Shown here piece after piece: positions 37,118 through 41,353 of a stretch of 64,000 nt of DNA. Under the pieces are notes generated by a model that worked only from the letters and a program-made list of their open reading frames with translations, had not been told where the DNA came from and did not search any database. The stretch is from contig NZ_LR593887.1 of NCBI RefSeq assembly GCF_901538355.1, positions 4,626,920-4,690,919 of the forward strand, in the 5' to 3' direction. The translations under genes and the position numbers were made by a program. The DNA is from Tuwongella immobilis (GTDB taxonomy: Bacteria > Planctomycetota > Planctomycetia > Gemmatales > Gemmataceae). Position 1 is the first letter of the stretch, and each line of letters starts with the position of its first letter.

Positions 37118-38089
37118 ATGATACGGCAGATGATGGCGGCTTGCCTGGTTCTGGCTAGCACCGGAATGTTGTCGGCAAGCGAGATGGAAACTTGGTTTTC
37201 GGAACGGGTCAAGGATTTTGGCACGGTTCCCAAGGGACCGGTGCTCACTCATTATTTCCGAATTACCAACCCCACCAACCAACCCATTCAGATCGGCGGC
37301 GTGCGTGTCTCGTGCGGATGCGTTTCGGCTTCCGCGACGCAGAACACCATTCCTCCTGGGCAATCGGCTGCGATCCTCGCCCAGATGGACACGCGTCGCT
37401 ACTCGCGTCCTGTCACGATCTTCGTGACCTTCCTGGCACCGCGCATGGAAGAAGTGACGCTGCAAGTGATGGCCAACACGCGTCTGGACTTGGTGATGAA
37501 CCCAGAAGTGTTGACGTTCTCTCAGATGACGCATGGCCGAGAAGCGCAAGCCCGCGTTCGCGTGTCGGTCTATGGCGATCCTGCGTTCCGCATCCTGAAA
37601 GCCACCAGCGAAAGCACGCTGTTGTCGGTGGAAGCCAAGGCTGCTGCGGGTCAATCGTCGGAAACCGCGTTCGATGTCGTGGCGACTGCGAGCGCCCAAG
37701 TGCCGGTGGGACGATGGTTTGCGGATGTGAATCTGGAAACCACCACAATGGGCAAGATTCGCGTTCCGGTGTCGATCGAAGTGCTCCCCTCGCTGTCTGC
37801 TGCCCCCAGCAATCTGACGCTCGGCAGCATGAGCATGGGACAATCGACCGAACAGCGTGTCATCCTGAAAGGCCCCGAGCCGTTCAAGGTGCTGCAAATC
37901 ACGGGCGTTGACGATCAAGTGAAGGTCACCAAGTCCGGAGATGAAGCCCGCCCCGTGCAGGTGCTGACCATCTCGGTGACTCCCAAGAAGTCCGGTCTGA
38001 TTGATCGCACGATCCGAATCGAAACCGACCTGAAGGGCGACAAAGTGGTGGAAATTCCCGTTCGTGCGGAAGTTTCTCCCAATCCGTAA
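37118..38089 (+). CDS. Exported DUF1573 protein
   Basis: 323 aa with a signal peptide (MIRQMMAACLVLASTGMLSA). The first domain is DUF1573: RVKDFGTVPKGPVLTHYFRITNPTNQPIQIGGVRVSCGCVSAS, with the characteristic CGC, then further Ig/ASH-like beta domains. DUF1573 proteins are exported and common in planctomycetes and Bacteroidetes, with unknown function. GAGGGA lies just before the ATG. A classic hairpin with T-rich tail follows, so the gene is probably monocistronic. Confidence 0.88.
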   Translation: MIRQMMAACLVLASTGMLSASEMETWFSERVKDFGTVPKGPVLTHYFRITNPTNQPIQIGGVRVSCGCVSASATQNTIPPGQSAAILAQMDTRRYSRPVTIFVTFLAPRMEEVTLQVMANTRLDLVMNPEVLTFSQMTHGREAQARVRVSVYGDPAFRILKATSESTLLSVEAKAAAGQSSETAFDVVATASAQVPVGRWFADVNLETTTMGKIRVPVSIEVLPSLSAAPSNLTLGSMSMGQSTEQRVILKGPEPFKVLQITGVDDQVKVTKSGDEARPVQVLTISVTPKKSGLIDRTIRIETDLKGDKVVEIPVRAEVSPNP

Positions 38090-38129: not shown

Positions 38130-38173
38130 ACCCCGGAATGATCGCAATCGATCGCTCCGGGGTTTCGCGTTTT
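38130..38173 (+). terminator. Intrinsic terminator after the DUF1573 gene
   Basis: ACCCCGGA (38130-38137) pairs with TCCGGGGT (38156-38163), and GATCG (38140-38144) pairs with CGATC (38149-38153) around the loop CAAT, separated by 2x2 internal loops. It is followed by TTCGCGTTTT. It isolates the DUF1573 gene from the cluster beginning at 38257. Confidence 0.7.
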
Positions 38174-38256: not shown

Positions 38257-39081
38257 ATGGATGGCACCCCGTTTACCCGCGAACAGTTGCGCTCGCATGA
38301 TCTGATTTGGATCACGCTGGATACGCTGCGTTACGATGTGGCACAATCCGAATGGCAAGCCGGTCGCACGCCATTTCTGCAATCGAAACTCCCATCCACG
38401 GGATGGGAAGCGCGACACTCGCCGGGCAGCTTCACCTACGCCGCGCATCAGGCATTCTTTGCCGGATTTCTGCCGACGCCGATTCCGCCAGGCCGACACC
38501 CGCGACGATTCGCACTCGCATTTGCCGGCAGCGAAACCACCGGCCCCGATACGTTGGTGTTCGAGACCGAATCGCTCATCGCCGGATTCCGCCAGGCGGG
38601 ATACACCAGCATCTGCATCGGCGGCGTCGGATTTTTCAACCAGCAGACACCCCTTGGCCGCATTCTCCCCAACTATTTCGATGAAGCGCATTGGTCCCCG
38701 AATCTGGGGGTGACCGATCCGGAATCGACGCGGAACCAGGTCGATCTCGCGTTGGAGCGAGCGTCGGCACTCCCCCGCGATCAGCGAATGCTGTTGTTTC
38801 TGAATTGCTCCGCGATTCATCAGCCAAATCGGTTCTATCTGCCGAATGCCACAGATGATACGCTCGAATCGCACGCGGCGGCATTGCGCTATGTCGATGG
38901 TCAACTGCAACGATTATTCGCAGGATTGGCCGAGCGTGCCCCGTTGTTCGCACTCGTGCATTCCGATCACGGCACCGCCTATGGCGAGGACGGCTACACC
39001 GGGCACCGATTGGCCCATCCGGTGGTATGGACGGTTCCGTATGCCGAATTCTGGCAACCGCAGCGGAAGGAGGCCGCATGA
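38257..39081 (+). CDS. STM4013/SEN3800-like hydrolase (alkaline phosphatase superfamily)
   Basis: 274 aa from the ATG at 38257; an in-frame GTG at 38224 would add 11 residues. The start of the fold is visible in HDLIWITLDTLRYDVA, where the Asp and Thr lie where sulfatases place metal and nucleophile residues, and the C-terminal metal site in ALVHSDHGTAYGEDGYTGHRLAHPV. The middle has GSFTYAAHQAFFAGFLPTP. The whole pattern matches the STM4013 family known from Salmonella and scattered bacteria, always next to two radical SAM genes. No signal peptide is seen, so it is cytosolic. Its stop overlaps the next start (ATGA). Confidence 0.8.
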   Translation: MDGTPFTREQLRSHDLIWITLDTLRYDVAQSEWQAGRTPFLQSKLPSTGWEARHSPGSFTYAAHQAFFAGFLPTPIPPGRHPRRFALAFAGSETTGPDTLVFETESLIAGFRQAGYTSICIGGVGFFNQQTPLGRILPNYFDEAHWSPNLGVTDPESTRNQVDLALERASALPRDQRMLLFLNCSAIHQPNRFYLPNATDDTLESHAAALRYVDGQLQRLFAGLAERAPLFALVHSDHGTAYGEDGYTGHRLAHPVVWTVPYAEFWQPQRKEAA

Positions 39082-40415
39082 ATCCGATCCCCACGCTCAG
39101 CGATTTAACCGCGCGATTGAGCCGAACTCCCTATCAGGGCTACGTTTACGCCTATCCGCACAAGACTGCGTACCGCCCGCTCACCCCGCCACGATCGCTG
39201 GCATCGGTCTGGAGCGAGCAACCGCAAGATTCGCTGTTTCTATACGTCCACATTCCGTTTTGCGGAATGCGCTGTGGATTCTGCAACCTGTTCACGCAGG
39301 CCAATCCGGTCGATTCGCTGGTGACGCTCTATCGGGATGCGCTCGATCGGCAGATGCTCCGCACCCGAGCCGCCCTGCCCGATGCCCGCTTCGCGCGGCT
39401 GGCCATCGGCGGCGGCACCCCGACCTACCTCGACTTGCCGGACCTGATCGGCCTGTTCGAGCGAATGCGGACGATTTTCGGCGTCGATCCGCGGCAGATT
39501 CCAACGGGGATCGAAGTTTCCCCGGAGACGGTGACACCCGAGAAACTCGCGTTCCTGCGGGAAATCGGCGTGCAGCGCATTAGCATGGGCGTGCAATCAT
39601 TCCGGGAGAATGAGACAAAGCACGCCGGGCGACCGCAGAAGTTGGCCACCGTGCATACCGCGATCGAAGCCATTACCGCACAACGCTTTCCGATTCGCAA
39701 TCTCGATCTGATTTACGGCATGCCCGAACAGACGCTTGATACGTGGGATGATTCGCTGCGGCAAACCCTGGCGATTCGCCCCGAGGAGATTTATCTCTAT
39801 CCGTTGTATGTTCGTCCGCTCACCGGATTGGGCAAATCCGATCGCGAATGGGACGATATTCGCATCGCCTGCTATCGGCACGCGGTCGGGGTGTTGACCA
39901 ATGCGGGCTATCGGCAAGTGTCGATGCGAATGTTCCGACTGGCGGAATTACCGCACGATTCCGGGCCAGATTACTGCTGCCAGCGCGATGGCATGCTGGG
40001 ATTGGGCTGCGGCGCGCGTTCCTACACGGCTGGCTTGCACTATTCCGGCGAATATGCGGTCGGGTCGCAATCGGTGCGGTCGATTCTCCGCGATTATGTC
40101 GCCCGCAGCGATGCCGACTTCGACCGCGTCGATTTTGGCGTGGAGTTGGATGCCGTCGAACAGCGGCGACGCTGGCTGCTGCAATCGCTGCTCGTCGCCG
40201 AGGGGATGTCTCGGGAATTCTATCGGCAGCGATTCAGCAGCGACGCCCTGGACGATTTCCCCGAATTGTGGGAACTCCCCGAATCGGGATTGGCGAGCAT
40301 CACCGATTTGCACATCACGTTGACAGCATTGGGGTTAGAACGATCGGATACGATTGGGCCGTGGCTGTTTTCCCCGGCGATGCGGCAGCGCATGGAGGCG
40401 TATCAATGGCGTTGA
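39078..40415 (+). CDS. STM4012-like radical SAM protein (HemN-like)
   Basis: 445 aa with AGGAGG five bases before the ATG. The radical SAM 4Fe-4S motif is C62xxxC66xxC69 in LYVHIPFCGMRCGFCNLF, a CGMRCGFCN variant of the HemN-type CxxxCxxC. Further blocks match the HemN/oxygen-independent coproporphyrinogen oxidase branch: LAIGGGTPTYLD, TGIEVSPETV, RISMGVQSF, LDLIYGMPEQ and DGMLGLGCGARSY. It is the STM4012-type family, not HemN itself, because of the N-terminal YQGYVYAYPHKTAYRPL segment and the neighbours. It overlaps both flanking genes and probably uses SAM to generate a radical on an unknown substrate. Confidence 0.88.
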   Translation: MNPIPTLSDLTARLSRTPYQGYVYAYPHKTAYRPLTPPRSLASVWSEQPQDSLFLYVHIPFCGMRCGFCNLFTQANPVDSLVTLYRDALDRQMLRTRAALPDARFARLAIGGGTPTYLDLPDLIGLFERMRTIFGVDPRQIPTGIEVSPETVTPEKLAFLREIGVQRISMGVQSFRENETKHAGRPQKLATVHTAIEAITAQRFPIRNLDLIYGMPEQTLDTWDDSLRQTLAIRPEEIYLYPLYVRPLTGLGKSDREWDDIRIACYRHAVGVLTNAGYRQVSMRMFRLAELPHDSGPDYCCQRDGMLGLGCGARSYTAGLHYSGEYAVGSQSVRSILRDYVARSDADFDRVDFGVELDAVEQRRRWLLQSLLVAEGMSREFYRQRFSSDALDDFPELWELPESGLASITDLHITLTALGLERSDTIGPWLFSPAMRQRMEAYQWR

Positions 40416-41353
40416 ATCTGGCGATGCTCTATCGTGGCTCGCTGGCCAGTTGCAACTACGCCTGCGACTATTGCCCGTTTGCCAAGCGCGTCGATCCGCC
40501 CGAGGCGTTGCGACAAGATCGACAACAGTTGGAGCGTTTCGTCGATTGGATTGCCCATCGTGCAACGATTGCGCCAGAGGATCGCTATTCCGTCTTGGTG
40601 ACGCCGTGGGGCGAGGCGCTGGTGCGGTGGTGGTATGCCGATGCACTGGCCCGGCTGAGTCATCTGCCGAATGTCACCAAATCGGCCATTCAAACGAATC
40701 TTTCCGGCAAACTGGATTGGCTTCCGAGCGCGAATGTCGCCAAGTTGGGGCTGTGGTGCACCTATCACCCCAACGAAGTCACCCGCGAGCGATTCTTGCA
40801 GCAATGTCAACGGCTGCTGGATGCCGGAGTTCCGTTCTCCGTGGGCGTGGTCGGTCTGAAGGAGCATGCCGACGAGATTGCCGCGCTGCGGGCCGCACTG
40901 CCGAAATCGGTGTATTTGTGGATCAATGCCTACAAACGGACGCCCGATTATACTGATTCCGAATTGCTCGAACGATTCACGGCGATTGATCCGCTGTTTC
41001 CCATCAATACGGTTCGGCATCGATCGCAGGGGCATGCGTGTCGCACGGGGGACTCGGTGATCAGTGTCGATGGGGATGGCACGATGCGCCGCTGCCATTT
41101 TGTTCGGGAGCCGATTGGGAATTTGTACGATGCCGATTTTGCCGATGCGCTGCGTCCGCGTCTCTGCGAGAACGCAACCTGTGGTTGTCACATTGGTTAT
41201 GTGCATTTGGAGCGGCTCGGATTGAATCGGGTATTCGGATCAGGCGTATTGGAACGCATCCCGCGCGGAAATGTGGACGGTTCTGAACAATTCCCAGGCG
41301 GACATTTTGACGCAAATCTCTTATCTTGTCCTGAACTCTCCAGAAACGGGTAA
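40406..41353 (+). CDS. STM4011-like radical SAM protein with C-terminal cysteine cluster
   Basis: 315 aa, overlapping the previous gene by ten bases, with GGAGG seven bases before the ATG. The N-terminal motif is C16xxxC20xxC23 (SLASCNYACDYCPFAKR). The C-terminal 80 residues carry more cysteines (GHACRTGD, MRRCHFVREPIGNLY and CENATCGCHIGY) arranged like an auxiliary iron-sulfur (SPASM-type) site. This organisation suggests modification of a peptide or small molecule, but no precursor peptide is visible nearby. It is the third member of the STM4011-4013 set; a STM4014-type gene is absent. Confidence 0.85.
   Translation: MALNLAMLYRGSLASCNYACDYCPFAKRVDPPEALRQDRQQLERFVDWIAHRATIAPEDRYSVLVTPWGEALVRWWYADALARLSHLPNVTKSAIQTNLSGKLDWLPSANVAKLGLWCTYHPNEVTRERFLQQCQRLLDAGVPFSVGVVGLKEHADEIAALRAALPKSVYLWINAYKRTPDYTDSELLERFTAIDPLFPINTVRHRSQGHACRTGDSVISVDGDGTMRRCHFVREPIGNLYDADFADALRPRLCENATCGCHIGYVHLERLGLNRVFGSGVLERIPRGNVDGSEQFPGGHFDANLLSCPELSRNG

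Follow-up and report, generated by a model that had tools for sequence, protein, structure and literature searches.

The STM4013-STM4012-STM4011 trio of Tuwongella immobilis as half of a split five-gene set with a possible leucine-rich repeat carrier protein

What do the overlapping genes STM4013, STM4012 and STM4011 of Tuwongella immobilis make, and on what do their products act? The three genes lie on the + strand of the window, the whole 64,000-nucleotide stretch of contig NZ_LR593887.1 analyzed here. They encode an alkaline-phosphatase-fold hydrolase (STM4013, 274 residues, 38257..39081), a HemN-like radical S-adenosylmethionine (SAM) protein (STM4012, 445 residues, 39078..40415) and a second radical SAM protein (STM4011, 315 residues, 40406..41353). 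All three match far above the curated cut-offs of their NCBIfam models (NF038075, 390.2 bits with a cut-off of 250; NF006067, 570.9 with 380; NF038073, 398.2 with 200), and neighboring genes overlap by 4 and 10 bases, as an earlier note made from the sequence alone had described. The trio is one half of a split five-gene set. We give about even chances to the reading that it supplies the radical chemistry of a pathway of five proteins centered on a scaffold or carrier, in which the ATP-grasp protein STM4014 would load the C-terminal Glu of a leucine-rich repeat (LRR) protein of STM4015 type and the trio would convert the load.

Composition and layout of the five-gene set

A scan of a genome collection covering 84,980 species yielded 54 loci with an STM4011 relative (loci and genomes carry L- and G-numbers in this analysis, G000 being the genome of the window). 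All three trio proteins were matched in the same order and strand in 45 of the 54 loci, and 6 of the other 9 seem to be cut by a contig end; the gene-neighborhood survey proposed in the earlier note thus finds the linkage kept, and profile searches, the other check that could have overturned the note, did not place the three proteins in characterized families. The usual neighbors upstream of STM4013 are an ATP-grasp gene (STM4014, 33/54 loci) and an LRR gene (STM4015, 32/54 loci), counted, like the other neighbors, with a simple gene finder that misses some genes. The full set has the order STM4015-STM4014-STM4013-STM4012-STM4011 and is annotated as a five-gene row in Salmonella, Streptomyces, Deinococcus, Methylobacterium and Paenibacillus plasmid records. 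Eight of the 13 plasmid records with STM4011 were examined. Seven are annotated over the region: in six the five genes stand in a single row, and the Bacteroides record holds STM4015, STM4014 and STM4011; in the eighth, unannotated there, profile searches found the same five families. Its distribution takes in about 14 phyla and appears to reach from Salmonella to the metagenome-assembled genome (MAG) of an Asgard archaeon.

In the window genome, the trio (C1:4665176-4668272) and a second locus with two LRR genes and STM4014 (about C1:5562938-5566816) lie about 0.9 Mb apart, while in the relative G015 all five genes are contiguous. STM4014 itself (C1:5565626-5566720) scores 214.9 bits with a cut-off of 175. 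The earlier note had called STM4014 absent, which is right for the neighborhood of the trio and wrong for the genome; its treatment of the trio as a whole unit did not hold, since STM4014 and an STM4015-type LRR protein, which it had overlooked, also belong. The tail-bearing LRR partner sits two genes before STM4014; it contains a WGR domain and matches TIGR02996 weakly, at 23.4 bits with a cut-off of 29.05. Between the two genes lies a divergent LRR-like gene (L069:6440-7615, equal to G000:C1 about 5564439-5565614), also with a weak TIGR02996 match and without the Glu tail described below. No protein of the window genome exceeds the curated cut-off of the STM4015 model, the best match reaching 47 bits with a cut-off of 275; in the 59 nearer genomes this model matched in 45, mostly general LRR proteins and none over the cut-off. 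Comparison with the named STM4011-STM4015 set (NF038073, NF006067, NF038075, NF038074, NF038076) showed that the window trio and STM4014 are over their cut-offs and that the order 4013-4012-4011 is kept, whereas the genes are divided between two loci and the LRR partner differs in its WGR domain, its low STM4015 score and its tail, GDIE rather than AVSE or TITE. The window trio is therefore an ordinary member of a named, uncharacterized set, with the split layout and the GDxE tail as a variant.

Co-occurrence across genomes argues that the five families belong together, split layouts included. Among 392 genomes of the phylum (Planctomycetota), the window genome included, STM4011 passes its cut-off in 11, each of which also has STM4014 over the cut-off; of the 12 genomes with STM4014, the remaining one, G266, holds an STM4011 piece of 173 bits. 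Among the 59 nearer genomes, the window genome included, both proteins are over their cut-offs in the same two, and a third, G050, holds remnants of both below the cut-offs. In the decayed set of G050 (L186, G050:C1:6577000-6588000), fragments of STM4014 lie on one strand and the opposite strand carries the C-terminal third of STM4011; in the sample, four genus mates of G050 have both proteins over the cut-offs. We also looked at 23 genomes chosen for an incomplete-looking locus. STM4014 is over its cut-off in 19 of them: nine actually hold it in the locus, and 10 of the 14 that do not have it elsewhere in the genome.

Other genes accompany the set in some loci. A DUF6745 LRR protein, mostly ending in Y.P..ET, travels with it in 12/54 loci, and a protein of about 100 residues ending in QREY(T/S)P accompanies the DUF6745 protein in 8/54; the pair is possibly another tail-bearing substrate. 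It was located at L011:10857-12374 (-), L051:6519-7849 (+), L102:977-2441, L103:7887-9184, L104:1316-2641 and L107:8933-10242, and a Lokiarchaeota MAG (L042) seems to hold it together with all five families. Two further clusters, C7 and C10, were rejected as shadow frames, C7 being antisense to STM4013 in 8/8 loci and C10 antisense to an LRR gene in 4/5. No peptidase or transporter was recognized in the gene clusters found in at least 5 of the 54 loci, one unannotated Xanthomonas-only cluster aside.

Glutamate-ended LRR proteins and the ligase STM4014

The counts show that most STM4015-type LRR proteins of the pathway have a conserved C-terminal tail with Glu as the final residue. Among distinct LRR proteins encoded within 6.5 kb of STM4014, 75/80 end in Glu, compared with 1/25 control LRR proteins (Fisher p 9e-18), where the controls come from the window genome and relatives and the system proteins from many phyla. 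An aromatic residue occurs at -8 to -5 in 72 of the 80 and Tyr or Phe at -6 in 64, while position -2 is Ser or Thr in 42 and Gly or Ala in 21. Examples are RYVAVSE, WRYPSITE, YYPMITE (Bacteroides), MNAMYTE (Salmonella) and YLYAGDIE (window genome, GDxE group), and the annotated STM4015 genes of record holders, Salmonella and Bacteroides included, end in Glu in 10/10 cases. An alignment of 24 STM4015 rows has an invariant terminal Glu, partly by selection, because its rows were hand-picked from the ordinary type and the GDxE group and a Glu-less L006 paralogue were omitted. The pattern GGNGAYWWYGARTRR (GD, any residue, E, stop) occurs twice in the window genome; the match with a stop codon is the tail-bearing LRR gene, and the other reads TGG. 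In a sample of 299 genomes of the Xanthomonas phylum, STM4015 was over its cut-off only in the Xanthomonas genome G073 itself.

Ten loci have several tail-bearing LRR genes. In paralogues with AVSE- or ALGE-type tails, the bodies are 47-73% identical and 5-7 of the last 8 residues are kept, only 3 in the L042 pair; in the GDxE group, 1-5 of 8 tail residues are kept and the Glu is retained. Two loci (L003:10723-16429 and L006:2799-6707) have four LRR genes with diverged bodies in a row before STM4014, of which 4/4 and 3/4, respectively, are Glu-ended. One STM4015-type protein already has a structure: PDB 2ra8 (Bacteroides fragilis), a structural-genomics orphan, scores 267.9 bits, and its match ends with YPMITE at residue 354 of 362; the last 8 residues of the chain are presumably a tag.

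LysX, ArgX and RimK all have a protein's C-terminal Glu as their target, and ArgX and LysX couple their substrate onto LysW. STM4014 has their ATP-grasp ligase fold, as judged from a predicted structure, and resembles them weakly in sequence. A profile built from 25 STM4014 sequences ranked LysX and RimK chains first in the PDB, weakly (E 1e-4 to 6e-4), with a common stretch D-x-R-V ... R-x-S ... TN. The fold comparison used the AlphaFold2 model of the L001 STM4014 rather than that of the window genome (mean predicted local distance difference test score [pLDDT] of 94.8). For this model, Foldseek gave 3vpb (ArgX with LysW) as the best match (E 1.5e-12), followed by DdlB, PsnB, LysX and RimK, and the VIA Z values were 23.3 for ArgX, 23.2 for RimK and 23.1 for LysX. 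The likeness to the LysX/ArgX-LysW systems lies in the ATP-grasp fold and in a partner protein with a conserved Glu-ended tail; the differences are that the partner is an LRR protein and that the kinase, reductase and aminotransferase of the lysine/arginine route are absent from the clustered genes of the set, which has a phosphoesterase and two radical SAM enzymes in their place. With RimK, STM4014 shares the fold and, by the proposal made here, action on a C-terminal Glu; it falls under the RimK family cut-off, and its LRR partner is unrelated to ribosomal protein S6, onto which RimK ligates glutamate.

Comparison of the gene trees showed that the tail type follows the clade of STM4014, also in the one genome seen whose trio has another ancestry. 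The tree of STM4014, built on 46 rows, unites the six labeled GDxE in one clade (100/100). One of them, from the L014 genome, had been labeled before any LRR protein was found there; the roughly 6 kb around its STM4014 hold no LRR protein. A search of that genome for the GDxE pattern gave four matches, one of which is a 500-residue LRR protein ending in NEYLYQGDYE that scores 316.5 bits on an STM4015-type profile and is unlinked to the other set genes. In the joined trio tree (32 rows, picked among long sequences), a single clade of all six GDxE rows is rejected by the approximately unbiased (AU) test (p-AU 0.00045), and the other five, the window included, form one clade (98/95). The GDYE tail, the place of the L014 STM4014 in the GDxE clade and the place of its trio elsewhere together indicate that in this one discordant case the tail went with the ligase and not with the radical SAM enzymes. 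The modular mixing first read from the single-gene STM4011 tree is confined to the L014 genome, since without L014 one clade is not rejected there (p-AU 0.288).

The hydrolase and the radical SAM enzymes of the trio

The radical SAM motifs noted earlier are conserved in both families: Cys62, Cys66 and Cys69 are invariant in 22 aligned STM4012 sequences, and Cys16, Cys20 and Cys23 of STM4011 are present in 23/23. STM4012 aligns along nearly the whole of HemN (1olt, its best profile match at 193 bits) and also with NocN (9p2u). It lies under the listed coproporphyrinogen oxidase, HemW and HutW/ChuW cut-offs, the window protein scoring 119.9 on TIGR00538 (cut-off 324.95) and 139.3 on TIGR00539 (cut-off 205.4). 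The C-terminal cysteine cluster of STM4011 also stands, with Cys212, Cys230, Cys259 and Cys261 in 23/23 sequences and Cys254 in 22/23, and may correspond to a twitch/SPASM auxiliary Fe-S site. Its sequence matches to such proteins are weak: the C-terminus matches SkfB (6efn) at E 0.0037, and Pfam SPASM gives 18.3 bits on the Bacteroides relative, below the cut-off of 21.5. The cysteine pattern may be like that of the SPASM/twitch maturases SkfB, MftC and PapB, and STM4014 has a fold similar to that of the graspetide ligase PsnB; unlike in graspetide and SPASM systems, no small precursor peptide was recognized among the clustered genes of the set.

STM4013 has invariant residues Asp22, Thr60, His64, His188, Asp201, Asp237, His238 and His250 in 25 aligned sequences, and the Asp and His residues suit two metals. 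By analogy with the NPP/alkaline phosphatase superfamily, Thr60 is the probable nucleophile. The window protein also matches Pfam Sulfatase PF00884 (37.4 bits, cut-off 25). Formylglycine-dependent sulfatases carry the motif C/S-x-P-x-R, which is absent from 24 of the 25 STM4013 sequences, the window protein included; the single match, in L011, is at chain residue 73, beyond the invariant Thr. Because the motif is missing from the window protein, a phosphoesterase with a Thr nucleophile is likelier than a sulfatase.

A phosphatase theme recurs around the set. A HAD-type gene cluster is present in 12/54 loci (one member scanned), and in Salmonella a Cof-type HAD gene overlaps the end of STM4011. 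On the Bacteroides plasmid (L101:6965-8530), STM4011 is fused to a Cof-type HAD phosphatase beside STM4015 and STM4014, with no STM4012 or STM4013 within the 14.8-kb stretch examined. These arrangements suggest a phosphorylated compound at the radical SAM step and a minimal core made up of the carrier, the ligase, STM4011 and a phosphatase.

In the window, ribosome-binding sites stand before two of the three genes for which the earlier note had claimed strong ones: AGGAGG (39068..39073, +) 4 bases before the ATG of STM4012 and GGAGG (40394..40398, +) 7 bases before the start of STM4011; inspection of the sequence before the STM4013 ATG found none. The terminator that the note placed upstream is plausible. 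Between the upstream gene and the trio, a hairpin of 8 + 6 pairs (38130..38163, +) is followed by an imperfect T-run, and the folded stretch has an energy of -27.1 kcal/mol (z -2.5; 5/200 shuffles equally stable); a simple terminator scan confined to loops of 3-8 bases did not list it. Nothing ties the gene before the hairpin (37118-38089, +) to the set; its product resembles a DUF1573-type secreted protein.

A loaded carrier protein and its alternatives

In the pathway proposed here, STM4014 would activate the carboxylate of the C-terminal Glu of the LRR protein at the expense of ATP and would couple an amine onto it (an amino acid, an amine or a nucleotide-like building block), much as LysW is loaded by ArgX and LysX. 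HemN-like STM4012 and twitch/SPASM-like STM4011 would then modify the protein-bound load, or the tail beside it, by radical chemistry. STM4013 would remove or cleave a phosphate ester, a task that a HAD phosphatase may share or take over in some genomes. The product may be either released or kept on the LRR protein as a cofactor-like mark. The earlier suggestion of a peptide, cofactor or sugar phosphate as the target can thereby be sharpened: the LRR C-terminal tail would either carry a load or itself be changed, perhaps with a phosphate-ester step. More tentatively, STM4015-type LRR proteins may represent a new class of large carriers, on whose C-terminal Glu a small molecule is remodeled into a cofactor, a natural product or a protein mark.

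Several observations weigh against this pathway. Four of the 14 genomes whose locus lacks STM4014 have none over the cut-off (L005, L024, L026 and L038, the last with a 105-bit piece); all four are MAGs, and incompleteness is possible. The five Glu-less proteins among the 80 comprise a probably spurious 28-bit match, a short frame that ends ahead of the tail and three real LRR proteins, one of them the second LRR gene of the window genome. A disordered, freely swinging tail had been expected for STM4015, and the AlphaFold2 model of one STM4015 predicts order instead, with a mean pLDDT of 92 for residues 321-330 and 75 for the last residue. The discordance between the trio and STM4014 trees comes from the one L014 genome, whose trio row lacks STM4013. 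As to the ligase, the L001 STM4014 model also reaches VIA Z values of 19-21 with D-Ala-D-Ala ligases, glutathione synthetase and inositol kinases, and the STM4014 of the window genome scores far under the RimK cut-off (TIGR00768, 25.8 with 143.4 bits) and reaches 17.9 bits on the LysX model (TIGR02144, cut-off 275.6). Moreover, LysW is a small protein and not an LRR protein.

Three alternatives were weighed. The tail itself could be the substrate, as in ribosomally synthesized and post-translationally modified peptides, with STM4011 and STM4012 changing its Tyr, Trp or Arg and STM4014 making an ester or amide inside it, with no load. This is an unlikely reading, although the closest folds to STM4014 include that of PsnB, a graspetide ligase solved with its precursor, the tail is rich in aromatic residues (Tyr or Phe at -6 in most), and besides the weak SkfB match of STM4011 its Bacteroides form weakly matches the PapB and mycofactocin maturases (E about 0.03). 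The split of position -2 between Ser/Thr and Gly/Ala leaves no conserved ester partner there, known precursors are small peptides rather than LRR proteins of 280-500 residues, and the phosphatase domains would have no clear role. Improbable, too, is that the unmodified tail serves as a docking motif that recruits STM4014 or gathers the enzymes while a free small molecule is made. The tail predicted at high confidence, the usual role of LRR proteins as binding proteins and the several tail-bearing paralogues per locus fit such docking; a docking motif need not be terminal, yet nothing follows the Glu in 75/80, and the ligases to which STM4014 is similar have the C-terminal Glu of proteins as their substrate. 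That the trio acts alone on a free metabolite such as a tetrapyrrole, its linkage with STM4014 and STM4015 being incidental, is very improbable: HemN is the best STM4012 match and the trio stands apart from the duo in the window genome, but co-occurrence with STM4014 is 11/11 in the phylum despite split loci and STM4012 lies far under the coproporphyrinogen oxidase cut-offs. A role in anti-phage defense was also considered and rejected; PADLOC was blank for STM4013, STM4011 and STM4014, and its matches to STM4012 (36.7 bits) and to the WGR domain (27.1 bits) were weak and partial.

A full-text literature search, with subscription journals little covered, found no paper on the function of STM4011-STM4015, in line with the earlier note's statement that no product is described. 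STM4013.S appears in a list of sigma54 binding sites (PMC3844500) and STM4015 in a selection table as a "hypothetical protein" (PMC2784778). As far as the searches reach, the proposal of a loaded LRR carrier is new. All five families stand under placeholder names, although relatives of STM4011 are found across many bacterial phyla and in the MAG of one Asgard archaeon. With the Glu tail, the question of the product comes down to a single measurement: whether STM4014 changes the intact mass of STM4015. If the loading of the LRR protein by STM4014 is true, an LRR protein would join the LysW-like proteins as a covalent carrier of biosynthesis, now with radical SAM chemistry, and the structural-genomics orphan 2ra8 would gain a role.

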